64,000 nucleotides of DNA from NCBI GenBank assembly GCA_029706075.1, contig JAINUG010000048.1, positions 3,776,501-3,840,500 of the forward strand, in the 5' to 3' direction. The stretch is from Aldrovandia affinis (taxonomy: Eukaryota > Chordata > Actinopteri > Notacanthiformes > Halosauridae). The notes under the pieces were generated by a model that did no database searches, had not been told where the DNA came from, and was given only the letters and a program-made list of their open reading frames with translations. Shown here piece by piece: positions 23,974-47,673 of this stretch; position 1 is the stretch's first letter; every line of letters begins with the position of its first letter. A program made the position numbers and the translations under genes.

Positions 23974-26900
23974 ATGGCAGTGTGGGGGACCAGGCAGCTC
24001 ACAGCTCTCCTGTTCTTCAGTCTCCAGCATTTCGGACAACGTGAGTCTACACCTCTGATACCATGTAATGCCATCTCTAATGCACACCCATTTGAATGCA
24101 TATTTTATCTATAGCTACTGAATAGCTCATTTATTATTTGAGAGAGCTCTAATTCAGCATATATGAAGCTTTCCTTAGTGCCAATATGTGGATTTATGTC
24201 TAGCCTACTATGTAATCAGCAAATACTGTGAATACCCTTTCTGTATTAGCTCAATAATTTTTTTTTCCACAGTTCTTAATTTCAAATTGTGTTTTTCTTT
24301 GGTCCCTCCTATCTGTCTCTGCTTAGCCTGTGAGAGACAATTTGTGCAAAGAGTGGTCTTCAGCAGAACTAGAGAGGAGTCTGTGTCTCTCTCCTCGCCA
24401 GCTGAGACTTCAACTGGATTCTCTAGTCTGATATGGAAAAGGAACGACGTGGTTGTGGCAAGAATAAGAAACAGTAGTGTTATCAATGCTATAAATGGAA
24501 CCAAACTTTTCAAAAATGGGACTTTAGAGCTTCAAAAACCAGAAAAAACTGACAGGGGAGTTTTTGAATCAGAAGGGCATGATGCCACAGGAAAATGCAT
24601 ATTCAGTGGACGCATTTGGTTGGAGGTGCAAGGTGAGTATCAAATTTCAAAAAAGCAGCTCAGGGCCCCAGATGGCACAACTGGCAAAGGCACTTGTTCT
24701 AAGTTCAGGTTGCCCACAGCAGCCCGGGTTCGATCCCCGGCTGCGCCAACCCAGTTCTGACTGAGTGCCGTTCGGGGGCAGCTATTGGCTTTTTGCCAAA
24801 TTGGGAGAAAAAACGTGGGAAAAAACTGAAAGAAATTGTTTTGTTTTTAAAAAAAGATCAAAACTTAACTATCCTACCATTGAACAGAAAATATATGAAA
24901 GTTATTTATGAATGAACATCTTGTCTTTCATGTATCTTCTCTTTGATAAACTGGGAAATTATTTATTTATAAAGCCTTCCTTGTTTATCTCTCAAATTTT
25001 ACATTTGAAGATATGTTTACATGCAAATGTATTTCATGAGAGAGCATAATACATTGCAGTATAACTTATCAATCAATCAATCAATCAATTAATCAATCAG
25101 CCAATATATCAGTTAACTGATGGATCTTGTGTGATACGATGTGCTTTTCAGACCCTGTCTCTCAGCCTGTTGTGTCACTGGTCTCCTGTGACAGCGGGCG
25201 TGCAGTGCTGAGGTGTGAGGTGGAGAGGGGGGACACTGTGTCTTTCTGGTGGGGTGTCATGGGGGGTTCTGTGGACACCAGCCTCGAGGTCATCGCTGAG
25301 CGGGGGCCCGTGCTGTTCGTGGAGAGCAGCATCTCAGGGGAGCTGGTCTGTATGGCCAACAACAGTGTCAGCGCAGAGACCAGTGCCCCCCTCAACCCTA
25401 CCTGTCCTGGTGAGAAGAGGGGCAATTGTGTTTGTTGTAAAGTCATTTAACCTCAATCCTCTGTCTTGAGAAAAGCAGGAAGCTCTCCCAGTGATTGGAA
25501 ATTCAGTTCCAAAATTTTGCATTAGATAAAATTCTCTTTTTCCTTGTTGAATATTATGTTTCTCCACTAGAAATTCTGAATCATTTTTCATGGATATGAA
25601 GTAAATCAATAATAGCAATATGAAAATTACATATTTAGTTTTGGGTCCAAGGCATGTGCTTGTATAATAGCAACCATTATAAATTGAGATAATTTTACAC
25701 TTAAATGTTAAAGGAAGCTTTATCTTATTAACCAGATGCCATGAAACCACATCTGAACTCATCAGGAAGCAAAATAATTAAAGGTTAGAAATTAACATTA
25801 TTATCATTTATGTGCTAGAATGAAATGGTTATCAACCTTTATTATTGCATACTCCTACAGTCATATATTATTTTATGATTAATGTTCTGATGAAGGCCAG
25901 ATTTTTAAGAATCTTCAAACAAAATTGAAATATCAAAATATAACAAATTAGTCCATGCTAACTGTGTTTGAGTGGAGTGTTGCTTTTCCTTGTAGTCATT
26001 TGGGCATCAGTACATTTACAGCTTGCAACAGCATATTATAACAAAAACATGAATAATTGATTGATTATCAACTTAGTGGATAAATGGGAGAAACTGATCA
26101 TTAGAACTGATAATAATCTAATAATTAGAAACTGTGCTTTGTGAAAATGTGCACAGACTAATTTGTTCAATTTAGTAGTGCATATCTGAAAAGTAAGTAT
26201 GCTAATGCAACAATCTATTTTTTGCACAGGGTGATAGTTTTGCTTGCAAAGTGCTGAATAAACGTGTTGAATAATTGCAATAAATGTAAAATTCAAATGC
26301 ATGTTCCCAATTATAGCACATCAAATCAGAATATTACGAAATTATGTAAACAGAAAAGCTTCTTGCTTCTTTTATTGCTTCCGAGTTGTCTGTATTTTAA
26401 ATGTATTGTTTTTTTGTTTCTTTTGTAGGCAGCAAAAATTCTGGAAACCTCCTGATTTTGCTATGTGTCTGTGGTAGTCTTCTGGCCATGGTCATCCTCT
26501 TTGTAGTCATCCTGTGCATCACCAGCAGGGTCAAAGAACGACCCGACATGGGTAAGCAAAATTCCAAAAAGTGAGCCAGGCTCTTGGGACTGTAAACAAA
26601 CAAACAAAACCCTTGTATTTATTTATTTTTTATACCTAAGTATTTATTTGATGCATTTCAGTAGTGGTTGTGATTACAGTGAACCATCATTGGTTGTTTA
26701 CTTTAGTTTTATTTTCCATAGTTTTATTTTGCAAAGATTTTGTGATGTGAGATCTGTGTGCTGTGATGCATTATTTGGTGCTTGTGTCTCATCTGTGGTT
26801 TGTGTTGTTTTGAAAGAAACTAATGAGGTCTACACCTTGTGGCAGGATCAGGGGTGCTGGGTTGCACCTCAGCCAAAGAACAATAATAAAATCAACATAT

Positions 26901-29338
26901 AACAGTAAATAGGAAACAAAGGGACATTTATTTGGGAAATTCTCACACCAACCAGGCAGGATGCGTGGGGGGGAGAACACACACAGGCAGTCCGTAATCC
27001 ACTCTCGTCATCTTTGTCCAAAATCCAATGTCGTAGTCCAAAGCAGGTCCTCAAAACAGTCAAAAATAGGTACACAAACAGGGTTCTCCAGGCAACCCAA
27101 TCAATCCACTAGGCAATCCAAAACACAACTTCCTCTTTCTCCAATACTCCTACGCGCTTTTCCCTTCCGGTACTTCACCCCGATGTAGGACACAGGTGCA
27201 TCTTTTATCCCATTAAGGTGTGGGGGTGGAGCCAGCGGGCTGTGATGTAATGCTCCTCAACAACCACCCTTCTCCATGTCTCCGGGCGACTGCCACAACA
27301 TCAATCAACAACCAAACTAGACTCGATCCAAACAAAATTACGCCAAATGTCACATTCCAAGGTAATTGAATACCAATACTTTGTGAGTGCCTCTGTTTTT
27401 GTTTAGTGAGTGGCAAGCTCACAATGCCTACGTCCACACTCAAAATATGCATACCAACATCACAGTAAACATGACTAGTAATAAGAATAGAAACTATCTT
27501 GGTGACATTTAATTTTTCAATAGAAAGATGGATTGCAATTTAATTTAATCCTATAAATTAAGAACAGTATTAGCACTGTTAGATTAGTATATCTAAATAA
27601 TTGTGCAATTATATACACTATATGGCCAAAAGTCAGTGGACACCTGACCAACACACCTACACTATATGGCCAAAAGTCAGTGGACACCCTACTAATTATT
27701 GAGTTCAGGTGTTTCAGCCACACCCATTGCCAACAGGTGCATAAAATCCAGCACATAGCCACAGACAAACATTTAGAATTCAGAATGGTTCGTAAAGAGC
27801 TCAGTGACTTTAAACGCGGCACTGTCATAGGATGCCACCTTTGCCACAAGTCAGTTCGTGACATTTCTGCCCTACTAGATGTGCCCCTGCACAGAGCCCT
27901 GACCTCAACACCTTTGGGAGGAATTAGAACGCTGATTGTGAGCCAGGCCTTCTCGTACAACATCAGTGCCTGACCTCACAGATGTTCTTTTGGATGAATG
28001 GGCACAAATTCCAACAGACACATTCCAAAATCTTGTGGAAAGCCTTCCCAGAAGAGTGGCAGCTGTCATAGCCGCAAAGGGGGGTCCAACTCCATATTAA
28101 TGCCCATGATTTTAGAATTGGATGTCCAACAAGCTCATATAGGTGTGATGGTCAGGTGTCCACTGACTTTTGGCCATATAGTATAGATCAAGCAAACATC
28201 ATTGATGATGAGGGTGTATGCTGAAACATTTTAATCTTTTAGCCTCTTCTGCACATATGAAACAGCACTGTGGACTGACAATCCTTCTGAAAATCTTGTA
28301 CATGTCTGAATGTTTGCTGCTCCGTAATGAGTGTGCTGTCTCCCATCCTGTTTGCTTCTTAGAGGAGGAATACACAGATATGCAATTTAAGACTGCTGCA
28401 AAAGATGTTGGAGATGAAGGGAACCATTCTACCTTTTCTGATGAAGAAATCCTGACAGGACAAACAGCAGAAGAAGGCAAGTATCTTCCATATCTGGCTG
28501 AATGACAATTAGCTATGTAACCTTGCATAAACCCACACTACACGCTCACTTATAATCTAACCTTCATACGCACACACAAAATTATATACATTTTTGAATT
28601 GTGCAAATTGGTAATGTTTACTAACATTACTAATGAAGTACAGCCTAGGTACACCCCACCTGATGGTGTAATGTATGTACTATTTAACCTGTATCATACA
28701 CCAGAAAGCAGGTATATTTAATTGAAGTGATACAATCATGGAGTATTGGAAGATAGGCTTTGACACCTTTTTCCCAGCTGGTCCCTGATAGCATATCTGT
28801 TAGATCTATATGCTGCATGTGTAACAGCATTCAGCACATGGTCACATCTGGTGCCAAGACCTCAAGAGCAAACAACATGATATCTTGCCTCCTGTGCGGT
28901 CAAGTGACAAAGCCGAGGTGATAATTGACAGGGCTAGAAATAAGGAAGACTTTAGCCAGGATTTTGTTGGCATGTAAATAACGGTCTGGTTTCCATGTGA
29001 CAGCAGATGGACTCTACATTGCGATGACTAATATCATGCAGCCTACGGAGAGCTGTTCCACATTCAGAATGAATCAGACCTTGTCTGAGGCTTCCAACCA
29101 AGGTAAGTGAAACTAGGTGACATGGATTTGGCTCTGCTAGCTCTGCTTAAGTGACGAGTGTGTATGTGCATTTATGTGTGAATACATGCGCTCTGACAAA
29201 GTCTGTTTCTCTCTATTTTGGTCAGGGTGTGGTCCATATCCCTTGCAGACAGAACGGAGCAGTGATGTGGTTTATGCTCAAATCTACATCATGAAGAGAG
29301 TCAAGAGTACCCCAGGAAAAGAACTTGACTTTGCATAA
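23974..29338 (+). CDS. Receptor 3: CD2/SLAM-like with ITIM tail
   Basis: Predicted 358-residue receptor. Exons: 23974-24040, 24327-24632, 25152-25409, 26429-26551, 28363-28476, 29007-29102, 29226-29338; all phase 1, frame open. Signal peptide 1-22; V-like domain 23-124 with two extra N-glycosylation sequons compared with receptor 2 (NSS, NGT); four-Cys C2 domain 125-210; membrane segment 211-251 (LLILLCVCGSLLAMVILFVV). The tail is about 110 residues in three exons: acidic EEEYTDM (Tyr255) and LYIAM (Tyr293), both of YxxM form, and DVVYAQI (Tyr338), which fits the ITIM consensus V-x-Y-x-x-I. ITIMs in known receptors recruit SHP phosphatases, so an inhibitory role is inferred. Intron 5 has a GC donor (AAG|GCAAGT). 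No SLAM-type TxYxxV/I motif is present. Intron 4 carries an LTR-like repeat and a Tc1 remnant. Confidence 0.85.
24659..24820 (+). mobile_element. tRNA-derived SINE in intron 2
   Basis: Same insertion as 12385-12540, at the same distance from the V exon donor, with box B 'gggttcgatcccc'. Confidence 0.8.
26838..27297. mobile_element. Solo-LTR-like or TIR element, 460 bp
   Basis: Begins TGTGGCAG and ends CTGCCACA, a perfect 8-bp inverted pair with TG...CA ends as in LTRs. Interior is non-coding, with AATAAA on the plus strand near the left end. I find no clear target duplication, so LTR against DNA element is open. It lies just outside the duplicated block that starts at about 27336. Confidence 0.45.
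27614..28184 (+). mobile_element. Deleted Tc1 transposon
   Basis: Ends carry the 'cactatatggccaaaagtc' terminal repeat. The interior keeps the N-terminal DNA-binding part of a Tc1 transposase (frame from 27785: MVRKELSDFKRGTV...) joined directly to the last part of the ORF, so most of the catalytic domain is deleted. The left end is doubled: a short inverted piece of the right end precedes the true left end. The block-A copy is at 34790-35306. Confidence 0.75.
28477..28482 (+). promoter_or_regulatory. Non-canonical GC splice donor, receptor 3 intron 5
   Basis: The exon end AGAAG is followed by GCAAGT rather than GT. This is the usual strong context for GC-AG introns. The duplicate in receptor 4 keeps GC (35595-35596). 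Any GT nearby would break the phase-1 pattern. Confidence 0.75.
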
Positions 29339-31430
29339 AGAATACATAGAGATTGTTCCATTTGCTTCCTATATTAACATCACAAGTTTGGCAGATGTAT
29401 AAGGTTAGACTGTGGTTGGGAAGGTTTTTATATTGTGGTTAGACTGAAGAGAGCCATATATTAGTACTGTGCAAAGATATGTATTAGGTCTGTAATTACA
29501 TAACTTCCATAAAATCAAGCAAGGTAAACATTTCCCAAAACTACTAAATTGATGCTACAGTATGTTAATCTGTAGAGGATTTCATGAATACATTATCAAC
29601 ATGACATGTAGATGAAGCCCTGGGTTGAATCAAACGATCAAAACAATTGTCCAAAACCTTTGAGAGAGAGAGAGAGCCTCTCCTCTCCAGACTGACTGAC
29701 TGGGTTTCTCTTTGTAAGCAATTCTTCATAGGAGAATTTGTATATACATGTACTGTATCAACAATCATATAAATGTCTTGTTATGTCATATATCTGAATA
29801 ATACCTGATATACATTTCAAATGTTCTCCCTTTCCTACATTTATTGTAATTCATTCATTTAAATGCAAAACCTTTAGAAGGCTGTGAGTCCAGTTTAAAT
29901 TGTAGAGAAGACAACCTGAAGATGTTTCACATCTTCCTTCAAAAAACATCTGACCTGCACCATATTTCATTTAAATGTGATTTAATTTAAATTAAAACCA
30001 CAGTGATAAACCACAGATGCAGTCTATGCTGCTCTTAATTTCACATTGAGTACCCCCCTGTACATCCCACATAATGTTATACTCCCACCCAATCTCTTTA
30101 AAAACAGCTTGAAACCACAAGGCCTTTATTTCTATATTTAACAGCCCTGGCTCACTTCAGTTCAGCAGTTTGCATGCATGTGACTGTTTGCATGTCTCTG
30201 TTCTTTCTGTGGGGGGCTTACCGATCCCTATTATTGGCCGGTTGTAATATTGCCTACAGGGTTGTAGTCGAGACCACCTTAAATGAGTCTGATTCAAGAC
30301 CGAGACCGACAGGAGTACGAGACCGATTAAAGGCAGAGATGAGAAAAATCCAAGTCATTTTCGATACCGAGACCATAAAAGTGCAGCTTTTATGCATTTT
30401 TCATGTTGTAAATAGAAAAAATACTGTCAGTGGTTACTGTGGTTTAATATTGTTTCAGGTTTAATAATTGAATGTTATAGTGAAAATTGTATATATTGAT
30501 CAGAATAAAATATAACAAAACAACACTCTTTTGTCTTCTCCCAGTGCATTACACATGGTTCTGTGTGTTTAGAATACATCTGTATTAACACTGCACAAAG
30601 AGAACAATTGCCATCTAAACTTTTCTAAAGATGAAGCCTCAAAGTAAATTAAAACAGTTAATACATTCTCAGCACTAAAATAATTGACGGCTGCAGTTTC
30701 CAATTCCTGGTTCATTAATGCACACTATGAACATAAATATGTTTTTAAAGGGAGGAGGATGTCCTGTGTACACATAATCAAAATGTTCACAGACACATGA
30801 AGAAAAAGAACGGCTGATTAAGAGGAATTCTGATTAAATTGGCTGATAGTTTCTATCTGTTCCTAACTATAGGTTATTTTGGTTATGCCAGTCATTGAAG
30901 CAGTCTCCGTCACAGGACATGAACTTGTGTCTTCTGGTGGCAGAGCTGGTACTTCCACCTACTAGCTGACTGGTAGCTACTCACTGTTCGTAAATGGTGA
31001 AACGGGTCTTCTTTTGGGCTTTTGGTATTGTAAAAGCAAATAAATCAGAATAAACGAAGAGAAAACAATGAAGAGTTTTCCAAAATTCTGAAGTCTGTGC
31101 ACTCTCTTCAATCACGTGCATCTTCATTAGCATCACGATGTGTGTATAGCACATTCATGATAGTAAATGCAAAACAAAGGAAACCTCATTTCGTTGTAAA
31201 GGAAAATGCATTAGTTAGAACCGTAGACAAATTTCACCAGATTTCACCAGATATGAGGGAATCAGTTATGCAACATGATGATATTACTGGTGACACTGGT
31301 TGCCATTCAGGGGGGGCTGTTTGGCCAATATGTATCGGAGAATGACGGTTGTGGGCTTAGTTTGTAGCAAAGGATACCATCGTGAGGATACAAAACTTTC
31401 CTATGTGAAACATACTCACATATCTCGTAG
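29339..31430. other. 3-prime flank of receptor 3
   Basis: No gene is seen. It presumably holds the 3-prime UTR. Positions 30240-30375 carry several 'gagacc' units (a dispersed repeat). The matching region after receptor 4 (37140-38676) has an extra 111-bp segment. Confidence 0.4.
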
Positions 31431-31437
31431 ACCCAGG

Positions 31438-34400
31438 AGAATGACACCTTTGCTGTTGTTGGTGATACAAAATGCAACATTGGAATGCTCTCGATTTGGC
31501 TGGCTCTTGTAACAAAGCAGGGTCTTTGTCACAGCTGAAAGCGGTAGCCTACTTACAAATCAATCAGCATCATTACATGTTGATGTGTGAAGTGCCAACT
31601 GCTGACTAGTCTACTACACTGCAATGCACACCTAATTTGTGGTAATTGAATGATTACTTGGGATCGTAATGCGTTGATTGCTTAACAAGTAGCTTCAGAA
31701 AGTCCTCCATTGACCTCTTGGTGTTGGAGGATGGAACAGCAGGGTCCTGACAGAGGTGGTGAAAAATACATGGCCTTACCCATAACTCCAACAGCCACTG
31801 AATACCACTACAGAAAAAACACTTCATGTGACATTTTTTTGTGGAATTCCCTGCCACTGCTCTTTGTTCCTAAAAACAGACATTGTTTTAAGCTTGAGAA
31901 TACCAAATGAATGTGATGGAATTCTTACACTTTCTTATAGATATTTTGTTTATCGTATACATGCAAAAGTAAGCTACAGAGCTGGTTTTGACACCTCTTG
32001 AGCATTCATCTGCAACTGACCACATCTAATAAACACAGAAAGATACCATATACACTACCGTTCAAAGGTTTGGGGTCACCTTCCATCTGGACTATGGCTA
32101 ATCGGGCACTCCTTCATTCTTCACCAAGATAACGACCTGAAACACACTTTGAAGTTGTGCAAGAACTATCTGGTGAAGGAGGAATGTGAACAACAACTCA
32201 AACTAAAGACCTGGCCTGCCCAGTGTCCAGACCTCAATCCCATAGAACTTGTATGGGACAAACTGGAAAGGAAGAGTCAAAGCAAAGCAACCCACAAGTT
32301 TCTCTGGGAATTGCTGTAGGATAGCTGGGAAAACATGTCGGGTGATTTCCTGCTAAAACGTATTAACCGAATGGCCACAGTTTGTAAGGCTATTCTCACG
32401 CCAAAGGGTGACTATTTTGAGGAATCCAAGATTCAATTTTCAATATAATTTTCTTGAACATTTCTTTGATGTTCATTTTGTTCATTGTTACATGTGTTTT
32501 TTGTCATTTTAAAGTATTTACATAAATGTATACGGTGTAAAGCATTGTCAATTATGAGATAAAAATAGTTTCCAGCAGATGACCCCAAACTTTTGAACGG
32601 TAGTGTATTTAAGCAACTCAGAAACAGAACAACAGAAAGCCCCCACCACTAGTTGAATAGAAAACAAGTGCTGAAAGTTAGATGCCATTACACGCAACCA
32701 CAGTTTAGATGCTGTGCACCAGCAGAGAATGGCTTCTCTCCACTCTGCCTGCAATTTAAAATTAATGAACAGGGTTGCCTTTCAGATTGTGAGTCTGTAC
32801 ATTTGCATGCAAGATGGTAAGTTCTGTTTATTTTTACACGTGCTTTTTATTCTCAAAAAATGACTTTCACTCAGGCTTCTTTCAGCGTATTGGAAAATGT
32901 TGTCAATTACATGTCAATTCATTTTCAATCCCAATTCAGCTGTGGCACAGAAGTCATCCCGAGAAGTTAGACAAGTTGGGGATACCATATTTTTGCATCA
33001 TGCCTGGAGGAACAGCCATGTTGTAGATGCTCGCTGGAGAATGTCTGATAAACGTCTAGGAACTATTCACAAAAACTGTCAGGATAAATGTCAGGTTTTT
33101 GCAAACGGATCACTTCTTCTCAAAAGGGCAACAAAAAGTGACACAGGAAATTATACAGGGGAATTGTATGACCATTCCGGACGTTTCATTTCAAGGACAG
33201 AGATTGAGGTCATCATTATGGGTAAGATCTTTAAGAGCAATTATATTGACAAAATGACTAATTGGGGTTTTGCCAGCCCCATTTCAACAAATAACCAAAT
33301 TGGATATCTAATTAATTACACATGACTACTTAAATGCAATATGATGTGGACTATCCAACTGTCTATCCAAAATAAAATGTACTGTCCCTTTGTAACAGAA
33401 AAGGCAAATGACTATAATTATAAAAAAAGCTCTTGAGAATCCAACATTTTTGATTTTGTATTTATTGTTTACCCCCAACTTTCACCTCCTCTAAGCAAGC
33501 CATTCTAAACTACTTTGATGTTACAGTGAAAGATGGCTTCAAGTAGCTGGCAGAAAAGTCATTGAGGATTTGATTGAACAGTCCCAGAATAGTACAACTC
33601 CACTGTTGCAGCCTGCCATGGCCTCAGTTTGTCTGTATTCTTTATTTCTTTTTTCTGTATTGTCATTTCCTAGAGCCTGTGTCTCAGCCAGAAATACGTG
33701 CATCTTGTATGGTAGACGGACAAGTCATGCTGACCTGTTCAGTGGACAGAGGGGATGAGGTCAAGCTGCAATGGACCGGGCTCGGGAATCTGTCCCAGCA
33801 ATTACAGTCAGAGCGAACCCTGTACCTGGTCAGTAATGCATTCGTTCACATGGCCTGTGTTGCAGAAAACCCGGTTAGCAAAAAGTCCAGCAAACCCATT
33901 ACGAAAAAATGCAGAGGTAAGAGCCTACAATATGGTCTGTGTCACTCATCCTAAACAGTATAATTAAGTAAAGATAAAGACCAACAGCTTGACAAGCCTC
34001 AAACAATCTTGAATACTTTTAACTGAAACAGGTCGTATTCCAGTTTGCATCATATTGGGACTGTTCATTGGTATTCCAGTGTGTTCCATAGCCTTTATGA
34101 AGTTATACAAGAAGCCAATAAAGAACAGTGAAGGTAAGCATAAGATTCTTGTACATTAAATATGTTTATTTCCTTCTGTTTTTGAACTCTTCATAAGTAT
34201 ATTTTCACGCCATATATGACCAATCTGATTTGACTGGCAAACACAAATTAGTCTTAAATATCATTTGGGTATTTGAATCAAACTCAAATAGTACACTTGT
34301 TATTTTATCACAATTTCACACCTTAAATTAGCCCTCATATAAACTTATATATATAAACCGCCTTTTCTCTTCTTCACCCAAATTAAGTGATATTGTCCAC

Positions 34401-34516
34401 ATTCAATTGTCAGGGAAGTCAAAGAATTACATTTACACAATGACAATAGAGACCAAAAATATATGTTGACAAAGCCTGAATCAACAAAATATTTTTGGGG
34501 AACAGTCTTTCATAAT
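31438..34516. repeat. Tandem duplication block B, copy 1
   Basis: Contains the 5-prime flank and exons 1-4 of receptor 4. It is collinear with 44531-47673 (receptor 5), interrupted only by element insertions on either side. The right edge is at 34516, where similarity to receptor 5 stops and similarity to the receptor 3 intron begins. Confidence 0.85.
32053..32605 (+). mobile_element. Tc1 transposon remnant
   Basis: Inverted ends 'cactaccgttcaaa...ggtttggggtc' and 'gaccccaaacttttgaacggtagtg' are flanked by TA. The interior encodes a decayed end of the DDE transposase (HQDNDLKHT..., WPAQCPDLNPIELVWDKLER). The corresponding position before receptor 5 (about 45770) has no insertion. Confidence 0.85.
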
Positions 34517-36491
34517 TACGCCAAATGTCACATTCAAAGGTAATTGAATACCAATACTGAGTGCCTCTGTTTTTGTTTAGTGAGTGGCAAGCTCACAATG
34601 CCTGTGTCCACACTCAAAATATGCATACCAACATCACAGTAAACATGACTAGTAATAAGAATAGAAAAGTTTAGATGGTGACATTTAATTTTTCAATAGA
34701 AAGGTGGATTACAATTTAATTTAATCCTATACATTAAGAACAGTATTAGCACTGTTAGATAAGTATATCTAAATAATTGTGCAATTATATACACTATATG
34801 GCCAAAAGTCAGTGGACACCTGACCATCACACCTACACTATATGGCCAAAGGTCAGTGGACACCCATTGCCAACAGGTGCATAAAATCCAGCACATAGCC
34901 ACAGACAAACATTTAGAATTCAGAATGGTTCGTAAAGAGCTCAGTGACTTTAAACGCGGCACTGTCATAGGATGCCACCTTTGCCACAAGTCAGTTCATG
35001 ACATTTCTGCCCTTCTAGATGTGCCCCTGCACAAAGCCCTGACCTCAACACCTTTGGGAGGAATTAGAACGCTGATTGTGAGCCAGGCCTTCTCGTACAA
35101 CATCAGTGCCTGACCTCACAGATAGGTACAAATTCCAACAGACACACTCCAAAATCTTGTGGAAAGCCTTCCCAGAAGAGTGGCAGCTGTCATAGCCGCA
35201 AAGGGGGGGTCCAACTCCATATTAATGCCCATGGTTTTAGAATGGGATGTCCAACAAACTCATATAGGTGTGATGGTCAGGTGTCCACTTTTGGCCATAT
35301 AGTGTAGATCAAGCAAACATCATTGATGATGAGGGTGTATGCTGAAACATTTGAATCTTTTAGCCTCTTCTGCACATATGAAACAGCACTGTGGACTGAC
35401 AATCCTTCTGAAAATCTTGTACATGTCTGAATGTTTGCTGCTCTGTAATGAGTGTGCTGTCTCCCATCCTGTTTGCTTCTTAGAGGAGGAATACACAGAT
35501 ATGCAATTTAAGACTGCTGCAAAAGATGTTGGAGATGAAGGGAACCATTCTACCTTTTCTGATGAAGAAATCCTGACAGGACAAACAGCAGAAGGCAAGA
35601 ATCTTCCATATCTGGCTGAATGACAATTAGCTATGTAACCTTGCATATACCCACACTACACGCTCACTTATAATCTAACCTTCAAATACAGAAACACACT
35701 CATAGACATATGTATGAAACATACATAATGTACATACGCACACACAAAATTATATACATTTTTGAATTGGGCAAATTGGTAATGTTTACTAACATTACTA
35801 ATGAAGTACATCCTAGGTACAGCCCACCTGATGATGTAATGTATGTACTATTTAACCTGTATCATACACCAGAAAGCAGGTATATTTCATTGAAGTGATA
35901 CAATCATGGAGGATTGGAAGATAGGCATTGACACCTTTTTCCCAGCTGGTTCCTGATAGCATATCTGTTAGATCTATATGCTGCATGTGTAACAGCATTC
36001 AGCACATGGTCACATCTGGTGCCAAGACCTCAAGAGCAAACAACACGATATCTTGCCTCCTGTGCAGTCAGGTGACAAAGCCAAGGTGATAATTGACAGG
36101 GCTAGAAATAAGGAAGACTTTAGCCAGGATTTTGTTGGCATGTAAATAACTGTCTGGTTTCCATGTGACAGCAGATGGACTCAACATTGCGATGACTAAT
36201 ATCATGCAGCCTACGGAGAGTTCCACATTCAGAATGAATCAGACCTTGTCTGAGGCTACCAGCCAAGGTAAGTGAAACTAGGTGAGATGGATTTGTCTCT
36301 GCTAGCTCTGGTTAAGTGACGAGTGTGTATGTGCATTTACGTGTGAATACATGCGTTCTGACAAAGTCTGTCTTTTCTCTCTACTTTGGTCAGGGTGTGG
36401 TCCATATCCCTTGCAGACAGAGTGGAGCAGTGATGTGGTTTATGCTCAAATCTACTTCATGAAGAGAGTCAAGGGTACCCCAGGAAAATAA
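32729..36491 (+). CDS. Receptor 4: hybrid CD2/SLAM-like with ITIM tail
   Basis: Predicted 338-residue receptor. Exons: 32729-32816, 32940-33221, 33674-33916, 34032-34133, 35484-35594, 36175-36267, 36394-36491; phase 1 throughout, frame open. Strong start context (A at -3, G at +4); signal sequence within residues 1-30 (VAFQIVSLYICM). V-like domain 30-123 (DARWRMSDK, NGSLLLKRATKSDTGNY), four-Cys C2 domain 124-204 (ASC, LTC, MAC, KKC), membrane segment 205-238 (CIILGLFIGIPVCSIAF). The tail is homologous to receptor 3: EYTDM (Tyr242), LNIAM where receptor 3 has LYIAM (Tyr to Asn279), and the ITIM DVVYAQI (Tyr323). A G-to-T change makes a stop five codons before the receptor 3 stop. Ectodomain and membrane exons pair with receptor 5, tail exons with receptor 3: a chimeric gene formed by tandem duplication. 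Inferred inhibitory receptor. Confidence 0.85.
34790..35306 (+). mobile_element. Deleted Tc1 transposon (block A copy)
   Basis: Duplicate of 27614-28184 with an extra internal deletion just after the left end. Same remaining N-terminal transposase frame. Confidence 0.75.
35595..35600 (+). promoter_or_regulatory. Non-canonical GC splice donor, receptor 4 intron 5
   Basis: GAAG|GCAAGA: the GC donor inherited with block A. The exon is one codon shorter than in receptor 3. Confidence 0.7.
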
Positions 36492-38676
36492 CTTGACTTT
36501 GCATAAAGAATACATAGAGATTGTTCCATTTGCTTCCTATATTAACATCACAAGTTTTGCAGATGTATAAGGTTAGACTGTCGTTGGGAAGGTTTTTATA
36601 TTGTGGTTAGAGTGAAGAGAGCCATATATTAGTACCATGCAAAGATATGTATTAGGTCTGTAATTACATAACTTCCATAAAATCAAGCAAGGTAAACATT
36701 TCCCAAAACGACTAAATTGATGCTACAGTATGTTAATCTGTAGAGGATTTCATGAATATATTATCAACATGACATGTAGATGAAGCCCTGGGTTGAATCA
36801 AACAATCAAAACAATTGTCCAAAACCTTGGGAGAGAGAGAGAGAGCGAAAGAGAGGGAGAGAGAGCCTCTCCTCTACAGACTGACTGGGTTTTTCTTTGT
36901 AAGCAATTCTTCATAGGAGAATTTGTATAACATGTACTGTATCAACAATCATATAAATGTCTTGTTTGTCATATATCTGAATAATATCGTATATACATTT
37001 CAAATGTTCTCCCTTTCCTACATTTATTGTAATTCATTCATTTAAATGCAACACCTTTAGAAGGCTGTGAGTCAAGTTTAAATTGTAGAGAAGACAACCT
37101 GAAGATGTTTCACAGCGATAAACCACAGATGCAGTCTATGCTGTTCTTAATTTCACATTGAGTCCCCCCCTGTACAGCCCACAAAATGTTATTCTCCCAC
37201 CCAGTCTCTTTAAAAACAGCTTGAAACCACAAGGCCTTTATTCCTATATTTAACAGCCCTGGCTCACTTCAGTGCAGCAGTTTGCATGCATGTGACTGTT
37301 TGCATGTCTCTGTTCTTCCTGTGGGGGGCGTTTTCCTAGAGAATGTGGGGGCAGGATATTATGAGATTGATAAGTCAGTGGACCAGGTGGGTGAAAACAT
37401 CACATGGTTTTCTAAGAGGGCTTTGTCATGTTCATGTCCTGCCTACCGATCCTTATTAGCTGGTTATTGGCCGGTTGTAATATTGCCTACAGGGTTGTAG
37501 TCGAGACCACCTTAAATGAGTCTGATTCAAGACCAAGACCGACAGGAGTTCGAGACCGATTAAAGGCCGAGACCAGAAAAATCCAAGTCATTTTCGAGAC
37601 CAAGACCATAAAAGTGCAGCTTTTATGCATTTTTCATAAATTTTCATTTTTCGTAAATATAAAAAATACTGTCAGTGGTTACTGTGGTTTAATATTGTTT
37701 CAGGTTTAATAATTGAATGTTATAGTGAAAATTGTATATAATGATCAGAATAAAATATTACAAAACAACATTCCTCTTTTGTCTTCTCCCAGTGCATTAC
37801 ACATGGTTCTGTGTGTTTAGAATACATACTGTATTAACACTGCACAAAGAGAACAATTGCCATCTAAACTTTTCTAAAGATGAAGCCTCAAAGTAAATTA
37901 AAACAGTTAATACATTCTGAGCACTAAAATAGCATTAAAATATTTGATGGCTGCTGTTCCCAATTCCTGTTTCATTAATGCACACTATGAACATAAATAT
38001 GTTTTTAAAGGGAGGAGGATGTCCTGTGTACACATAATCAAAATGTTCACAGACACATGAAGAAAAAGAACGGCTGATTAAGAGGAATCCTGATTTAATT
38101 GGCTGATAGTTTCTATCTGTTCCTAACTATAGGTTATTTGGGTTATGCCAGTCATTGAAGCAGTCTCCGTCACAGGACATGAACTTGTGTCTTCTTGTGG
38201 CAGAGCCGGTACTTCCACCTACTAGCTGACTGGTAACTACTCACCGGTCCTAAATGGCGAAACGGGTCTTCTTTTGGGCTTTTGGTATTGTAAAAGCAAA
38301 TAATAAATCAGAATAAATGAAGAGAAAACAATGAAGAGTTTTCCAAAACTTCAATCGTGTGCATCTTCATTAGCATCACGATGTGCGTATAGCACATTTA
38401 TTATAGTAAATGCAAAACAAAGGAAACCTCATTTCATTGTAAAGGAAAATGCATTAGTTAGAACTGTAGACAAATTTCACCAGATTTCACCAGATATGAG
38501 GGAATCAGTTATGCAACATGATGATATTACTGGTGACACTGGTTGCCATTCAGGGGGGGCTGTTTGGCCAATATGTATCGGAGAATGATGGGTGTGGGCT
38601 TAGTTTGTAGCAAAGGATACCATCGTGAGGATACAAAACTTTCCTATGTGAAACATACTCGCATATCTCCTGTTTG
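36492..38676. other. 3-prime flank of receptor 4
   Basis: No intact gene. Duplicate of the receptor 3 flank. A (GA)n run lies at about 36832-36865. At 37331-37440 there is a segment absent from the other copy (see findings). Confidence 0.45.
37338..37426 (+). pseudogene. Possible Ig-exon start relic
   Basis: After an acceptor-like 'gttttcctag' (ends 37339) the phase-1 frame reads ENVGAGYYEIDKSVDQVGEN then ITWFSKR, resembling the start of a CD2-type V domain (VGDTI...W in receptor 4). No second half or donor is seen. The match is short; chance cannot be excluded. Confidence 0.3.
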
Positions 38677-38821
38677 CCATTTGAACGCGACACGCGCTGT
38701 AGTCACTGCTGCTCCAAATCGTACTTTTCCCTGCAGTTTCACCGCCCGCATTTTCTGCATTTTTATACTGGTTTAAACACAAAACTCTTCTCTATTTTAA
38801 AATATTTTTCGGTTACTCATT

Positions 38822-40650
38822 TTTTTACATTTTACATTTTAAGCATTTAGCAGACGCTCTTATCCAGAGCGACTTACAAGATGTGCATTAATACAAGGTA
38901 AGAACAATCAAAGTTGGTGCACAAGATCAGTGCAGGAATACAGCGATAGACATCATTGCAGGCATCTGCATATCATACCTGTAACACTGGGAAAGAAAAG
39001 GTTAGTGGGTTTAAAAAAAATTTTTTTTTAATTAGGTACAGTGTAGAACAAGTAAACAGTGGTGACGACAGATTGACTAGATGGACAGTGTTCAGTGGTA
39101 ATGGAGTCTGAAGAGGTGGGTTTTGAGTCTCTTGCGGAAGATTGGAAGTGATTCCGCAGTCCTGACCGATTGCGGGAGGTCGTTCCACCAACGAGGGACC
39201 AGGACAGAGAAGAGGCGAGACCGCGAGGAGCGGCTGCCAGGCGCCCGGAGGGATGGGGCAGTCAGTCTGCCAGCGGAGGTGGAGCGGAGGGCTGGGCGGT
39301 GTAGGGAGTGATGAGTGACTGGAGGTACGGGGGAGCAGTACCTCTGGCCGCTTGAAAAGCAAGCACCAGTGACTTGAATCTGATGCGTGCTGCGATGGGG
39401 AGCCAGTGCAGAGAGGAGAGTAGAGGGGTGACGTGGGTGAACTTCGGCTGGTTGAACACCAGGCGAGCAGCAGCGTTCTGGACTAGTTGCAGTGGCTTGA
39501 TGGCACAGGCCGGAAGGCCTGCCAGCAGGGAATTGCAGTAGTCCAGACGTGAGATCACCAGGGCCTGGACCAGGAGTTGAGTGGCCTCTTGGGTGAGGAA
39601 CGGTCGGATCCTCCTGATGTTGTGGAGGGAGAACCGGCAGGTCCGAGTGATCGCTGCAATATGGCTCGAGAAGCACAGCTGGCTGTCCAGGGTTACCCCA
39701 AGACTCCCGGCACACTGGGACGGAGACACTATGGAGCCTTCCATGGTGATTGATGCATCAATCATCGGGGAGCCCTTCGCTGGGAGGAAGAGCAGCTCTG
39801 TCTTCCCCAGGTTCAGCTTCAGGTGGTGGGTGGACATCCATGCAGAGATGTCAGCCAGGCATGCAGAGATCCGTGCCGGGACCTGGGTATCAGATGGAGG
39901 GAAGGAGAGAAAGAGTTGAGTGTCATCAGCATAGCAGTGATAGGAAAAACCATGAGCAGAAATAACAGAGCCAAGTGACTTAGTGTACAGAGAAAATAGG
40001 ACGGGGCCTAGCACCGAGCCCTGCGGAACTCCGGTAGAGAGGGTGTGGGGAGAGGAGAGGGATCCTCTCCAGGCCACCTGGTAGGACCGGTCAGCCAGGT
40101 AAGACTCAAACCATGTCAACACAGATCCAGAGATTCCCATCCCGACGAGAGATGAGAGCAGGATCCGGTGGTCCACGGTGTCGAATGCCACCAACAGGTC
40201 GAGGAGGAGAAGGACGGAGCTAAGGGATCGGGACTTATCAGTGTGAAGAGCCTCAGTGACCGCAAGGAGAGCAGTCTCTGTGGAGTGGCCTGCTCTGAAC
40301 CCAGATTGGTTGGGATCAAGCAGGTAAGAGATGAGCAGACAGTTGATTATAGACAGCCCGCTCTAACGTTTTGGAAAGGAATGGGAGGAGAGAGACAGGA
40401 CGGTAGTTAGAGATGACAGCAGGATTCAGAGAGGGTTTTTTGAGGAGGGGGACAACCTGAGCGCATTTGAGGGAGGAGGGGACAGAGCCAGAGGAAAGAG
40501 AGGAGTTAATGACATTGGAGACAAAGGGGAGGATGTCCGTGGCAATGGACTGGAAGAGGGGGGAAGGAATGGGATCAAGAGGGCAGGTGGTGGGACGGTG
40601 GGAGAGAACAAGTTGAAGGATGTCCGAGTCAGGGAGGGGTGAGACTAATC
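38822..40650 (-). mobile_element. L2-type LINE, 5-prime truncated, minus strand
   Basis: The minus-strand frame 39262-40194 (310 residues) encodes reverse transcriptase: [29 protein letters not shown] and the catalytic YADD of [13 protein letters not shown]. It continues after a frameshift in 39092-39715 to a RLKTHLFRLHY end. The 3-prime terminus (38822-38900) has 'agcgtctgctaaatgc' and an A/T-rich tail typical of fish L2 elements. It is inserted inside the larger plus-strand LINE region. Fragments of the same family lie at 6374-6630, 16590-17411 and 17999-18165. Confidence 0.85.
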
Positions 40651-43600
40651 AACCTATAGGGTAAGCACAAACGATGGCTGCTTCCTCTCCACTCTTTTTT
40701 TGCTCTCGTTGTAGCATGTATAGTCTTAGCTCTCCTGCCGATGTTACTGATAATGTTAATTTTACATGCCATAAGTGTGAGCTTAATTTAGCGTTGGCGG
40801 AGAGGGTAGTTGAGTTAGAGGCCCGCATCCGGACTCTCAGAGAGATTAAAGACCATGAGAGTTTTATTCAGTGTGTAGAGTTCTACGCCGGATGCACCTG
40901 TGAGCGCTTCTCCCATCGCACCAGCAGAAGAGCCGACACAGCACAGCCAATTTGTCACGGTTCGGCGGGGACATAGTTGTCAGCCTAAGTAAGATCACTA
41001 GCTCCTAAAGCTGCACTTGTGAACGAACTGATCACTGATTATAAACTTGACATTTTAAGTTTGACGGTTTTAGGTTAGACCTGATGAGTACATAGCATTA
41101 AATGCATCTACCCCGGTTGGATACTCTGGTTGTCACAATCCTCGACAGTCAGGCAGAGGTGGTGGCGTGGCTGTTATTTTTGACACTAGACTACGCCTTA
41201 CTAAGAAATCTATAAACATATTCTCTTCATTTGAAGTGCTTTCCTGGGCTCCATACAGACTAATGTAGATAATAGATCTATATTTACTTCATCTTTTATA
41301 CTAGTTACTATCTACAGACCCCCTGACCCTATGCTGCTTTCCTCTCAGAGTTTTCTGACTTTTTATCAAACCTAGCAGTTATGGCAGATAAAGTTGTGAT
41401 TATAGGCGACTTTAATATTCATGTTGATAATGGAAATGATTCTCTAGTGAAGGCTTTTGCTTCTATTCTTGACTCCGTTGGTTTTGTCCAAAATGTGTCT
41501 GGGCCGACTCATTGTCATCAACATATACTGGACTTAGCTTTATCCTATGGTATTAGCATTAGCAATCTAGTTGTCTCTCCTCATAATCCTGTGCTCTCTG
41601 ACCATTTCCTTATTACGTTTGAAATTCATGCTACCACTGCTATTAGATCAAAACCAGTGTTCTACTTTAGTCGCTCCCTAAATTCCTCTACGATACCTAA
41701 CTTTGTCAGCCTGTTCCAAGAATCATTTACTGTTAATCAGGATCCCACTAGTCTACAATCTATTGATCAGCTGACAGACAATCTAAATTACACCCTGCGC
41801 AACACTCTTGATGTTGTTGCGCCTCTCAAAAAGAAAAAAACTAGCCAAAAGAAGCTTGCACCATGGTATACTGACCACACACGTGCTCTTAAACAAGCTT
41901 CTCGCAAGTTGGAACGTAAGTGGCGATCCACTAAATTAGAAGTATTTTATTCTGCCTGGAAAGACAGTCTGGTACAGTACAAATATGCTCTCTCCTCTGC
42001 AACGTCAACCTATTTGTCTGATGTGATTGAGCATAATAAGAATAATCAAAAATTTATTTTTGATACAGTGGCCAAACTGACAAAGAACCACACTGAAACC
42101 AATGCGAAGCCTCCGGCAGCCTATAATAGTAATGATTTCATGAACTTTTTCTCTGAGAAGATTGAGAAAATTAGAGATGAAATTACTAAAATGGCACCTT
42201 CTGCTGTAGCGGACACTGATCAGAAAGCACAGGCTTACCAGGACAGGGGTCCTATGGCTACTCTTGAGTTTTTTAGTGCTCTGGAGTGGACTGAATTTTC
42301 TAAATTGGTTATGTCCTCCAAACCATCTACTTGCCAATTAGACCCAATCCCAACACAACTTGTTAAAGAACTTCTTCCTGTTATGGGGCAATCCATGCTA
42401 GACATTATTAATCTGTTTCTTTCATCAGGCTATATGCCAAATTCTCAAAAAGTGGCAGTAATTAAGCCACTTTTAAAGAAACCAAACCTTGACCCAGAAA
42501 ATCTCAGTAACTACAGGCTAATTTCTAATCTTTCTTTTCTCTCAAAAATTCTAGAGAAAGCTGTAGCTCAGAGACTGACTTCATTCCTGACATCAAATGA
42601 CATCTATGAAACTTTTCAGTCAGGATTTAGGCAACACTATAGCACTGAGACTGCTCTTATTAAAGTTGTCAATTACTTACTGATATCAGCTGACCGTGGA
42701 TGCGTCTCTATTCTTGTGCTTTTGGACTTAAGTGCGGCGTTTGACACAATAGACCACCAAACTCTTCTGAGCAGACTTGGAAACCTAGTTGGACTGCGTG
42801 AACAGGCACTCTCCTGGTTTAAGTCCTACCTGTCAGATAGGTATCAATTTGTGCAGTTAAATGATGAGCCCTCTGCTCTCTTCAAGGTGGAATATGGTGT
42901 CCCTCAAGGTTCTGTTCTGGGGCCATTATTGTTCTCCCTTTACATGTTGCCACTTGGTGATGTCATTCGTAAACATGGCGTACATTTTCACTGCTACGCA
43001 GATGACACACAATTATACCTATCAATGAAACCTGGCGAAGGACAATTTGAACAGTTGGAGGCCTGTTTTAAAGACATAAAAGACTGGATGTCAGATAATT
43101 TTCTATTGTTGAATACTGATAAAACAGAGATGTTGGTCTTGGGGCCCAAAAACCTCAGAAGAGGGTTATCTGATTTATCTCTTAATCTGGATGGTTGCTC
43201 TGTTGCTGCAAGTTTGGTGGTAAAAGACCTTGGTGTTACTATAGATCCTGGTCTCTCATTTGATAGTCACATCAAAAACATTTCCAGAGTAGCCTTTTTT
43301 CACCTGAGGAATATTGCCAAAATTAGGGACTTCCTGTCATTAATAGATGCAGAAAAATTGGTACATGCCTTTGTTACATCTACATTAGATTATTGCAATG
43401 CATTACTGTCTGGCTGGTTCAATACCTCACTCAGGAGCCTACAACTCATACAGAATGCTGCTGCAAGGATCCTGACTAGAACAAAGAAATATGAGCACAT
43501 TAGTCCTGTGTTAGCGTCACTTCACTGGCTTCCTATAAACTATCGTGTAGACTGTAAGGTACTCCTCTTAACTTATAAGGTGTTGCATGGACTTGCACCC

Positions 43601-44535
43601 TCTTACTTGACGGATCTACTTCATCCGTACAATCCCCCATGTTCGCTTCGCTCACAAGATGCAGGCAACTTGGTAGTCCCTAGAATATCAAAAAATACAG
43701 CAGGTGGCAGAGCTTTCTCCTATAGAGCTCCTTTACTGTGGAACAGTCTACCCGTCTCTGTGAAGGAGTCAGACACAGTCTCAATTTTCAAGTCTAGGTT
43801 AAAAACACATCTCTTTAGTCTCTCTTATAGTCATTAGGTGCAGATGTGGAGGGGGCATAGCAATAGAGCCTTCTGGCGCAATGAGCTATCCTTACTGTCA
43901 GCAATCATAAGTGATGATCCGCCCCTATCAGGACTGCTGATGATGTGGTGGGATGGTCTCTGAGTGCCCTCATGGCTGCGTGCTCCCTGTGCCACTCACC
44001 TAATTAGTTATGCTGCCCTAGATTACTTCTGCTGGTGCAAAAGTGTTATCACTACTCTTTCCCCTGATCCGGTGTGATATTTATCATAGTCATAATTGCA
44101 CCTTTCCTCTTTTCTCCCGACTTCATGGCACCTGTCCGGAGCTCACCTGCCCCAGAGTCAACCCCCCACCCCTGCCATGTGTTAGCCGGATGCCGCTGGC
44201 CCAGACCCTAGCTGCTGGTTCCATCCCCCGCCCTGCCCTGGTATCTGGAGGGATGAGGTCCACCCCACCCCTACACTTAGAATGCCCTTCCGGCGGTCTG
44301 TTAAGCCTCATGAGCCTCAAGGACTATTTGTTTTGTTTTTCTCTGTAACCCACAATTTTCCAGGAGTTCATCTCTACCGCCTTTTAAGGGGTCAGGGAAT
44401 AATTTTCCAGTCTCCCACATTGGTTCCAATGGTTTTCTGGTTTTTTGATTCCCTCTGGAAAATGTCAATTGTGAAGCGCTGTGTGACAACCTGTTTGTAA
44501 ATGGCGCTATACAAAAATAAAGATTGATTGATTGA
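40651..44535 (+). mobile_element. L2-clade LINE, plus strand
   Basis: Contains an ORF1-like frame (40674-40976, with Cys pairs and a short coiled coil VVELEARIRTLREIKD), a damaged endonuclease (about 41070-41380: GRGGGVAVIFDTRLR and TIYRPPDP separated by a stop and frame changes), the long reverse transcriptase ORF, and a 3-prime UTR ending 'gcgctatacaaaaataaag' plus (attg)n at 44535. The insertion interrupts the duplicated unit: flanking 'atctc' is present on both sides. Confidence 0.85.
41381..43837 (+). CDS. LINE ORF2 (endonuclease end plus reverse transcriptase)
   Basis: An 818-residue open frame. Residues 1-85 are the end of an APE-type endonuclease ([13 protein letters not shown], then [10 protein letters not shown]). 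A linker follows, then reverse transcriptase blocks: [58 protein letters not shown], and the catalytic [13 protein letters not shown] around residue 545. The C-terminal part ends [13 protein letters not shown]. This is the catalytic protein of an L2-clade element, which copies its own RNA at a nicked target. The 5-prime endonuclease part lies in other frames with a stop, so the element is probably no longer autonomous although the RT is intact. Confidence 0.9.
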
Positions 44536-47500
44536 TCTCGTAGACCCAGGAGAATGACATCTTTGCTGTTGTTGGTGATACAAAATGCAACATTGGAATG
44601 CTCTCGATTTGGCTGGCTCTTGTAACAAAGCAGGGTCTTTGTCACAGCTGAAAGCGGTAGCCTACTTACAAATCAATCAGTATCATTACATTCATTCAAG
44701 CTTTATTTATACTCGAAAATTACACTGAGTAATTACACTCATTTGCAGCGTCGTCGAGTAGTTACATATGTTCATTGGACAGCATCAACAATCAATGTAT
44801 GAACAATTTAAGAACATGCAGCTCAAAGTGCTTTACATTAAAAAGGATAGAAGCAGCTCACAATGCAGCATAAAAAATTTAAAAAACTTTCTGAGAAATG
44901 TAGAAACAGAATCTCTAAAATGAAAATCAATATTAATAATATTATGGTTTCTAAAAAAAAAAAAATACAGTTTCAGAGAAATTTAAAAACAATTACAAAT
45001 TGTGGCGATCTGCTTAGTCACCAATGTTCTAAACCGACCCATGGACACTAGACTACTTAGTTTCAGTGTACCCTGCAGGGCATTCCACGAGTCTGGGGCA
45101 CAGAAACTGAAGGCAGATCTACCAAGTTCAGTACTAACTCTAGGTGTTCTAAGTGTAAGCCAATCATTGGATCGTATACCATAGGGTCCAGAGGTCCATT
45201 CTAATAATGAAGTGATATAATTTGGGCAGTCTCCAATTATGGCTTTGTACAGAAATAGATACCAGTGCAATTCTCGTCTCTCTGCCAGAGAGGACCATCC
45301 AACATGTGGATGTGTGAAGTGCCAACTGCTGACTAGTCTACTACACTGCAATGCACACCTAAATTGTGGTAATTGAATGATTACTTGGGATCGTAATGCG
45401 TTGATTGCTTAACAAGTTGCTTCAGAAAGTCCTCCATTGACCTCTTGGTGTTGGAGGATGGAACAGCAGGGTCCTGACAGAGGTGGTGAAAAATACATGG
45501 CCTTACCCATAACTCCAACAGCCACTGAATACCACTACAGAAAAAACACTTCATGTGACATTTTTGGGGGAATTCCCTGCCACTGCTCTTTGTTCCTAAA
45601 AACCCACATTGTTTTAAGTTCGAGAATACCAAATGAACGTGATGGAATTCTTACACTTTCTTATAGATATTTTGTTTATCATATACGTGCAAAAGTAGGC
45701 TACAGAGCTGGTTTTGACACCGCTTGAGCATTCATCTGCAACTGACCACATCTAATAAACACAGAAAGATACCATATTTTAAAGCAACTCAGAAACAGAA
45801 CAGAAACAGAAACCCCCCACCACTGGTTGAATAGAAAAAAAGTGCTTGAAGTTGCATGCCATTACACGCAACCACAGTTTAAATGCTGTGCACCAGCAGA
45901 GAATGGCTTCTCTCCACTCTGCCTGCAATTTAAAATTAATGAACAGGGTTGCCTTTCAGATTGTGAGTCTGTACATTTGCATGCAAGATGGTAAGTTCTG
46001 TTTATTTTTACACTTGCTTTTTATTCTCAAAAAAGGACTTTCACTCAGGCTTCTTTCAGCGTATTGGAAAATGATGTAAATTACATGTCAATTCATTTCC
46101 AATCCCAATTCAGCTGTGGCACAGAAGTCATCCCGAGAAGTTGGACAAGTTGGGGACACCATATTTTTGCATCATGCCTGGAGGAACAGCCATGTTGCAG
46201 ATGCTCGCTGGAAAATGTCTGATAAACGTCTAGGAACTATTCAGGATAAATGTCAGGTTTTTGCAAACGGATCACTTCTTCTCAAAACGGCAACAAAAAG
46301 TGACACAGGAAATTATACAGTGGAATTGTATGACCATTTCGGACATTTCATTTCAAAGACAGAGATTGAGGTCATCATTATGGGTAAGATCTTTAAGAGC
46401 AATTATATTGACAAAATGACTAATTGGGGTTTTGCCAGCCCCATATCAACAAATAACCAATTTGGACATCTAATTAATTACACATGACTACTTAAATACA
46501 ATATGATGTGGACTATCCAACTGTCTATCCAAAAGAAAATGTACTGTCCCTTTGTAACAGAAAAGGCAAATAACTGTAATTATAAATAAAGCTCTTGAGA
46601 ATCCAAAATGTGTGATTTTGTATTTATTGTTTACCCCCAACTTTCACCTCCTCTAAGCAAGCCATTCTAAACTACTTTGATGTTACAGTGAAAGACAGCT
46701 TCATGTAGCTGGCAGAAAATTCATTGAGGATTTGATTGAACAGTCCCAGAATAGTACAACTCCACTGTTGCAGCCTGCCATGGCCTCAGTTTCAGTCTGT
46801 ATTCTTTATTTCTTTTTTCTGTATTGTCATTTCCTAGAGCCTGTGTCTCAGCCAGAAATACATGCATCTTGTATGGTAGATGGACAAGTCATGCTGACCT
46901 GTTCAGTGGACAGAGGGGATGAGGTCAAGCTGCAGTGGACCAGGCTCGGGAATCTGTCCCAGCAATTACAGTCAGAGCGAACCCTGTACCTGGTCAGTAA
47001 TGCATTCGTTCACATGGCCTGTGTTGCAGAAAACCCGGTTAGCAAAAAGTCCAGCAAACCCATTACGAAAAAATGCAGAGGTAAGAGCCTACAATATGGT
47101 CTGTGTCACTCATCCTAAACAGTATAATTAAGTAAAGATAAAGACCAACAGCTTGACAAACACTTTTGAATACTTTTAACTGAAACAGGTCGTATTCCAG
47201 TTTGCATCGTATTGGGACTGTTCATTGGTATTCCAGTGTGTTCCATAGCCTTTATGAAGTTATACAAGAAGCCAATAAAGAACAGTGAAGGTAAGCATAA
47301 GATTCTTGTACATTAAATATGTTTATTTCCTTCTGTTTTTGAACTCTTCATAAGTATATTTTCACGCCATCTTTGACCAATCTGATTTGACCGGCAAACA
47401 CAAATTAGTCTTAAATATCATTCGGGTATTTGAGTCAAACTCAAATAGTACACTTGTTATTTTATCACAATTTCACACCTTAAATTAGCCCTCATATAAA

Positions 47501-47673
47501 CGTATATATATAAACTGCCTTTTCTCTTCTTCACCCAAATTAAGTGATATTGTCCACATTCAATTGTCAGGGAAGTCAAAGAATTACATTTACACAATGA
47601 CAATAGAGACCAAAAATATATGTTGACAAAGCCTGAATCAACAAAACATTTTCAGGGAACAGTCTTTCATAAT
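44531..47673. repeat. Tandem duplication block B, copy 2
   Basis: Copy of 31438-34516 with the 5-prime flank and exons 1-4 of receptor 5. It carries a 0.6-kb LINE insertion (44692-45302) and lacks the Tc1 of the other copy. Confidence 0.85.
44692..45302 (-). mobile_element. LINE 3-prime fragment
   Basis: The minus-strand frame reads SNDWLTLRTPRVSTELGRSA, FSFCAPDSWNALQ, a reverse transcriptase C-terminus of a LINE family other than L2. The 3-prime tail 'aataaagcttgaatgaatg' is at the left end. The block B copy (31594 region) has no insertion. Confidence 0.75.

Follow-up and report, generated by a model that had tools for sequence, protein, structure and literature searches.

Receptor 4, one of five immunoglobulin (Ig)-type receptor genes (receptors 1 to 5) that lie together in the genome of the fish Aldrovandia affinis, seems to have been made by a single non-homologous tandem duplication, which placed the ectodomain of one neighbour, receptor 5, on the tail of the other, receptor 3, with its immunoreceptor tyrosine-based inhibitory motif (ITIM). 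The stretch analysed (the window) comprises 64,000 nucleotides (GenBank assembly GCA_029706075.1, JAINUG010000048.1, positions 3,776,501 to 3,840,500) and is part of a 5.9 Mb contig (C2000) of a 1.22 Gb assembly; coordinates below are those of the window, and the five genes were modelled from splice sites and intron phase. We put the probability of this origin, together with a presumed role of receptor 4 in the inhibitory tuning of receptor 5, at roughly 0.8.

The exon models reveal the composite nature of receptor 4 (32729-36491, forward strand). Its first four exons, for signal, V, C2 and membrane segments, are of the receptor 5 type (32729-32816, 32940-33221, 33674-33916 and 34032-34133), and its three tail exons are of the receptor 3 type (35484-35594, 36172-36267 and 36394-36491). 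The parental genes, on the same strand, are receptor 3 (23974-29338; exons 23974-24040, 24327-24632, 25152-25409, 26429-26551, 28363-28476, 29004-29102 and 29226-29338) and receptor 5 (45903-48925; exons 45903-45990, 46114-46383, 46838-47080, 47189-47290, 48262-48360 and 48867-48925). When the membrane-and-tail protein of receptor 3 was searched against the genome, seven of the eight matches (E up to 1) fell in receptors 3 and 4, and the eighth was a marginal one elsewhere (E 0.035). The receptor 5 protein gave 65 matches, of which the four below 1e-40 fell in receptors 4 and 5, on their V and C2 exons. In this genome, then, receptors 3 and 4 alone carry tail exons that are closely alike, and a V exon close to the receptor 5 type is confined to receptors 4 and 5. 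A first-pass annotation, made by a model from the letters and a list of open reading frames, had already described receptor 4 as a receptor-5-type ectodomain and membrane exon joined in frame to receptor-3-type tail exons. The exon models agree on the parts, and the exons do join open; the frame is, however, no coincidence. All internal introns of receptors 3, 4 and 5 are in phase 1, as are those of receptors 1 and 2, so that the reading frame is preserved automatically. GC-AG donors are seen after the first tail exon in both receptor 3 (28477, GCAAGT) and receptor 4 (35595, GCAAGA).

Self-comparison of the window by BLAST shows that 27336-34516 is present again, in tandem, as 34514-47673. The paired segments, all direct, are 27333-29931/34511-37114, 29999-30217/37111-37329, 30231-31426/37464-38669, 31575-32051/45302-45777 and 32608-34516/45779-47673. 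In the first copy, block A (27336-31426) holds the end of receptor 3 intron 4, the receptor 3 tail exons and downstream sequence, and block B (31575-34516) holds the exons for the receptor 4 ectodomain and membrane segment, along with the start of its intron 4; in the second, block A' (34514-38669) contains the receptor 4 tail exons and block B' (45302-47673) the receptor 5 ectodomain and membrane exons, all on the forward strand. The copies differ by several stretches. One of 6.6 kb, found in copy 2 only (38670-45301), contains two reverse-transcriptase frames and the 3′ end of a UnaL2 long interspersed nuclear element, ends about 0.6 kb upstream of the first exon of receptor 5, and is probably a later insertion. 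Another, found in copy 1 only (32052-32607) and presumably a Tc1-like element, also looks like a later insertion, its late arrival being suggested by its inverted ends and by an empty TA site at the matching place in copy 2. In addition, 148 bases of copy 1 (31427-31574) have no partner in copy 2.

The point at which one parent gives way to the other can be read directly. At each base, 34498-34516 is identical to the receptor 5 intron, ending at 47673; from 34514, 22 bases are identical to the receptor 3 intron from 27336, the first mismatch being at 34536. The unbroken sequence common to both parents at the switch is therefore AAT (34514-34516, forward strand), which is taken as the duplication joint. 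Downstream of it, a search for continuing similarity to receptor 5 gave none (best E 0.45), and upstream of it receptor 3 is matched best over 56 bases at 68% identity (E 0.01), which is not significant. The joint is single in the whole assembly, its other matches being its two parents only. These results bear out much of what the first-pass annotation had read from the letters: the recurrence of A then B as A' then B', the extent of the unit from receptor 3 intron 4 to the intron after the receptor 5 membrane exon (on which self-comparison and joint alignment agree), the switch between introns with its AAT overlap, which holds to the base, and the end of receptor 5 similarity at 34516. It had further spoken of later insertions in the second copy; the copy-specific stretches are real, and their later timing is what the structure of the copies suggests.

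How was the joint made? Among 200,000 random pairs of points in these two introns, 6.5% overlap by three bases or more, so that AAT is weak evidence for any one repair route; it is compatible with end joining and with a replication-type slip, without proving either. A breakpoint made by a transposon was also considered. A repeat at 26837-27301 with TGTGGCAG...CTGCCACA ends, presumably solo-LTR-like (long terminal repeat), has at least 63 matches among those listed (40 of 1071 candidates scored). It stops about 38 bases before the start of the duplication at 27336, and the joint does not coincide with its end; this candidate, for which the side left of 27336 was checked, was rejected.

If both halves of the unit were copied at once in a single event, they should have diverged equally. 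Substitutions amount to 121 in 3919 aligned sites of the tail half and 69 in 2366 of the ectodomain half, which do not differ by Fisher's test (p = 0.76). Nor is there any excess spread among the 18 complete 300-site windows (five part-windows excluded; p = 0.26). The substitution count omits 29932-29998, 30218-30230, 31427-31574 and 32052-32607 of copy 1, 37330-37463, 38670-45301 and 45778 of copy 2 and every gap column, and 37111-37114 is counted in two segments. Two different ages for the blocks, to which BLAST identities of 92-95% for A and 96-97% for B had pointed, disappear when substitutions alone are counted, the lower value of block A being due to excess indels. The even divergence of about 3% is as a single event predicts. 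If a neutral rate of 2-5 per billion sites per year applies, such a divergence would correspond to some 3 to 8 million years.

Equal halves, however, are predicted as well by two other histories, and to that extent they do not favour a single duplication. In one of them, a larger duplication of receptors 3 to 5 would have been followed by a deletion fusing the first receptor 5 to the second receptor 3. The resulting sequence would be exactly the same, so the earlier claim that receptor 4 arose in one step is supported by the ends, the joint and the equal halves and is at the same time open to a two-step history that would look alike. Two events are invoked where one is enough, and neither the alignment nor the similarity search around the joint revealed any remnant of a lost stretch; we consider this route improbable.

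The other history is a false (heterotype) duplication, in which the assembler set two diverged haplotypes in tandem and there is no real receptor 4. Errors of this kind are known from vertebrate assemblies, where they have also produced false chimeric genes, chiefly in regions of raised heterozygosity; the falsely duplicated regions there exceeded correct ones in heterozygosity by a factor of 1.5 to 1.8 (PMC9516828). Moreover, the joint is not confirmed by a second occurrence within the assembly. Several features nevertheless speak against an artefact. There is no N in the window, whereas gaps between the copies are one of the four marks described for false duplication, and the divergence of 3% exceeds the genome heterozygosity of 0.22-0.95% of three species tabulated in the same source (PMC9516828). 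A joint of three bases is presumably too short for an assembly overlap, so that reads either cross it or are themselves chimeric, and the surrounding contig is 5.9 Mb long. Two stretches of the flanks were checked, and each is present at full length only once, one of them having many short repeat matches as well; this check covers the flanks, and it would be passed by an assembly in which the duplicated part alone was falsely copied. A mis-assembly at 34.5 kb, which the first-pass annotation had named as a threat to its own reading, is thus opposed, indirectly, by the absence of N, the single-copy flanks and the short joint, and a false duplication seems very unlikely.

A single duplication thus remains our preferred origin, and it could have proceeded as follows. 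Within a cluster of CD2-like genes, one non-homologous event of the end-joining or replication type would have duplicated in tandem a unit of roughly 7 kb that begins within receptor 3 intron 4 and ends in the intron following the membrane exon of receptor 5. Receptors 3 and 5 would have been left whole at the outer edges, and the joint would have created a middle gene in which the upstream sequence and the signal, V, C2 and membrane exons of receptor 5 are followed by the three tail exons of receptor 3. Receptor 4 would then be transcribed, reach the surface and bind the ligand of receptor 5, and its motif VVYAQI could recruit SHP-type phosphatases, by which receptor 4 would oppose or tune receptor 5.

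The functional part of this proposal depends on the tails. That of receptor 3 contains YTDM, YIAM and the ITIM VVYAQI, the last in its final exon (29226-29338). Receptor 4 has kept YTDM and VVYAQI (final exon 36394-36491, whose stop comes five residues before that of receptor 3) and has NIAM in place of YIAM, and receptor 5 has one YxxM motif, YIAM, only. Receptors 1 and 2 have short tails without a tyrosine motif. The ITIM pattern [SIVL]xYxx[ILV] is matched by VVYAQI in receptors 3 and 4 and is absent from receptors 1, 2 and 5; by chance it is matched in 14% of shuffled receptor 3 tails and 11% of shuffled receptor 4 tails. The membrane segments predicted for receptors 3 to 5 contain no charged residue, and there is therefore no sign of an activating adaptor.

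Further observations weigh against the proposal. Compared with receptor 3, the tail of receptor 4 lacks the second YxxM tyrosine (N for Y), two single codons and the five C-terminal residues; either copy may have changed. Between receptors 4 and 5, 234 codons show 11 nonsynonymous and 3 synonymous changes (8 and 1, respectively, in the V exon), and the V exon also has a four-codon indel; relaxed constraint fits these changes as well as diversification does, and they are too few to separate the two. By family precedent the V domain is the ligand-binding part, and since the V exons differ, a common ligand of receptors 4 and 5 is not assured. Finally, receptor 5 may itself have carried an ITIM-related tail at or before the duplication, because its last exon (48867-48925) resembles the ITIM-bearing exon 7 of receptor 3, including YAQ, in an unused frame (12 of 5000 shuffles); in the spliced frame the value is 4694 of 5000, and the other tail comparisons gave 240 of 5000 (receptor 3 exon 6 with receptor 5 exon 5) and 1718 of 5000 (receptor 3 exon 5 with receptor 5 exon 5).

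Some of these points would also be expected if a real duplication had left receptor 4 as a by-product, silent or decaying, and not as a working inhibitory receptor. The nonsynonymous rate about equal to the synonymous rate (dS) relative to receptor 5, the missing tail tyrosine and the earlier stop relative to receptor 3 all accord with decay. After about 3% divergence, on the other hand, receptor 4 still has seven open modelled exons with their splice sites and has retained the ITIM; we regard a by-product as possible though doubtful. It had been claimed beforehand that the event produced an inhibitory version of receptor 5. The presence of VVYAQI in receptor 4 supports this, while the motif is a single one that 11% of shuffled tails match, and receptor 5 has no activating signs (an uncharged predicted membrane segment and one YxxM) and possibly a former ITIM-like tail. 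What the sequence safely allows one to say is that receptor 4 acquired a tail of the ITIM type; that a non-inhibitory receptor was turned inhibitory by its new tail is what we infer.

To which family do these receptors belong? The receptor 3 and receptor 5 proteins were compared with the PDB by phmmer. The best solved match of receptor 5 is CD2 (1hng, E 2e-10; 1hnf, 5e-8), followed by JAM and CEACAM chains (3e-7 to 1.5e-5), and that of receptor 3 is Fc receptor-like 5 (2e-9), with CD2 (1hnf) at 3e-8. Pfam scans of receptors 1, 3, 4 and 5 identified general Ig domains and nothing more specific. The CD2/SLAM family, which includes CD2, CD48, CD58, CD244 and SLAMF6, is characterized by a V domain that lacks the canonical pair of cysteines and by a C2 domain with four cysteines. 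Likewise, the V exon has one cysteine in receptor 5 (76), two close together in receptor 4 (76 and 80) and two at far ends in receptors 1 to 3 (24 and 113), which do not form the canonical pair when the strands are placed by eye, and the C2 exon has four cysteines in each of the five receptors. Judged by its sequence, the receptor 5 ectodomain is CD2-like. The receptors differ from that family in their tails, in which no immunoreceptor tyrosine-based switch motif (TxYxx[VI]) was found among receptors 1 to 5, the only motif of the kind being the single ITIM of receptors 3 and 4; membership of the SLAM branch is therefore not claimed. Receptor 3 departs further in that Fc receptor-like 5 ranks above CD2. 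A literature search on fish CD2/SLAM receptors yielded no useful study.

A second pair with matching outsides may exist in the same cluster. Exons 1 to 3 of receptors 2 and 3 lie in a sharply bounded tract about 2% diverged (11527-13215 / about 23770-25480), with 33 mismatches in sixteen 100-site windows up to 13137; divergence in the flanking windows is 13-22% to the left, and to the right a single transitional window (9%) is followed by windows of 19-30%. This looks like gene conversion yielding a matched pair. Receptors 1 and 2 show a contrast between exons, with a dS of 0.91 in the V exon (3030-3335 / 12052-12357), 0.10 in C2 (4496-4753 / 12882-13139) and 0.11 in the membrane/tail part, which suggests a mosaic history or conversion. 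Two mechanisms thus seem to have acted in one cluster, each leaving an ITIM receptor and a non-ITIM receptor that are alike outside. It is tempting, if speculative, to suppose that one ITIM tail cassette has been handed to different ectodomains along two independent routes, by conversion of exons 1 to 3 (receptors 2 and 3) and by chimeric duplication (receptors 4 and 5), with selection favouring matched pairs as such.

Other features of the neighbourhood may be mentioned here. Near the first intron of receptor 1 there is a local duplication (625-1056 / 2135-2597, 4.4% divergence), and a DDE transposase fragment lies at 49197-49688; together with the UnaL2 end and the inverted-end element, it suggests the repeat content of a ray-finned fish. 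On the minus strand, a putative sixth receptor (51729-53955) has open frames for two V-like parts, one short C2-like part and a tail with PPPPPS and GIYTNI. A 60 kb search downstream of the window found a V-type exon fragment (L009:7731-7847, minus strand) with 36% identity to the receptor 5 V (E 1e-5), and the cluster seems to continue beyond the window. Moreover, 52 of the 65 receptor 5 matches are on other contigs (C1884, C779, C2173 and C2413, for example; E 6e-4 to 0.9), 49 of them covering the C2 stretch, and the family may be much larger elsewhere in the genome.

Known systems offer several parallels. The closest precedent, in our comparison, is FCGR2C of the human and great-ape Fc gamma receptor cluster, described as a tandem-duplicated module whose middle gene swaps signalling tails (PMC6563257). 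As in receptor 4, the 5′ ectodomain part comes from the downstream gene and the 3′ tail from the upstream gene; by the same account, FCGR2C differs in having arisen by non-allelic homologous recombination between modules of about 80 kb, in contrast to a unit of about 7 kb with 3 bp of identity, and in combining an FcgammaRIIB-like ectodomain with a tail like the immunoreceptor tyrosine-based activation motif, whereas receptor 4 gained an ITIM-type one (PMC6563257). Siglec-11 and Siglec-16 are reported as paired receptors kept alike by gene conversion (PMC5701461). These and CEACAM resemble receptors 2 (no motif) and 3 (ITIM), which share an ectodomain tract of about 2% divergence inside far more diverged flanks, and differ from receptors 4 and 5, whose matching ectodomains would come from duplication and not from conversion. 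In Drosophila yakuba, tandem duplications are described as shuffling exons into new chimeric genes (PMC5460883); here, by contrast, the joined exons derive from two immune-type receptors of one cluster. This mode of receptor making is accordingly already known from human genes, and receptor 4 would be a clean new case of it, because FCGR2C has the same geometry, though by homologous recombination.

In families of paired inhibitory and non-inhibitory receptors, later recombination has often obscured the founding step. In receptor 4 the joint can still be read base by base, at a divergence of about 3% and with both parents adjoining, so the step that puts a new tail on an old ectodomain becomes directly testable. 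Homology between the genes would also seem to be dispensable, since phase-1 introns throughout would leave most such joints readable. If the tail cassette has indeed been passed around in this way, a CD2-like family in fish would have turned into a system of paired receptors comparable to KIR, Siglec or CEACAM.

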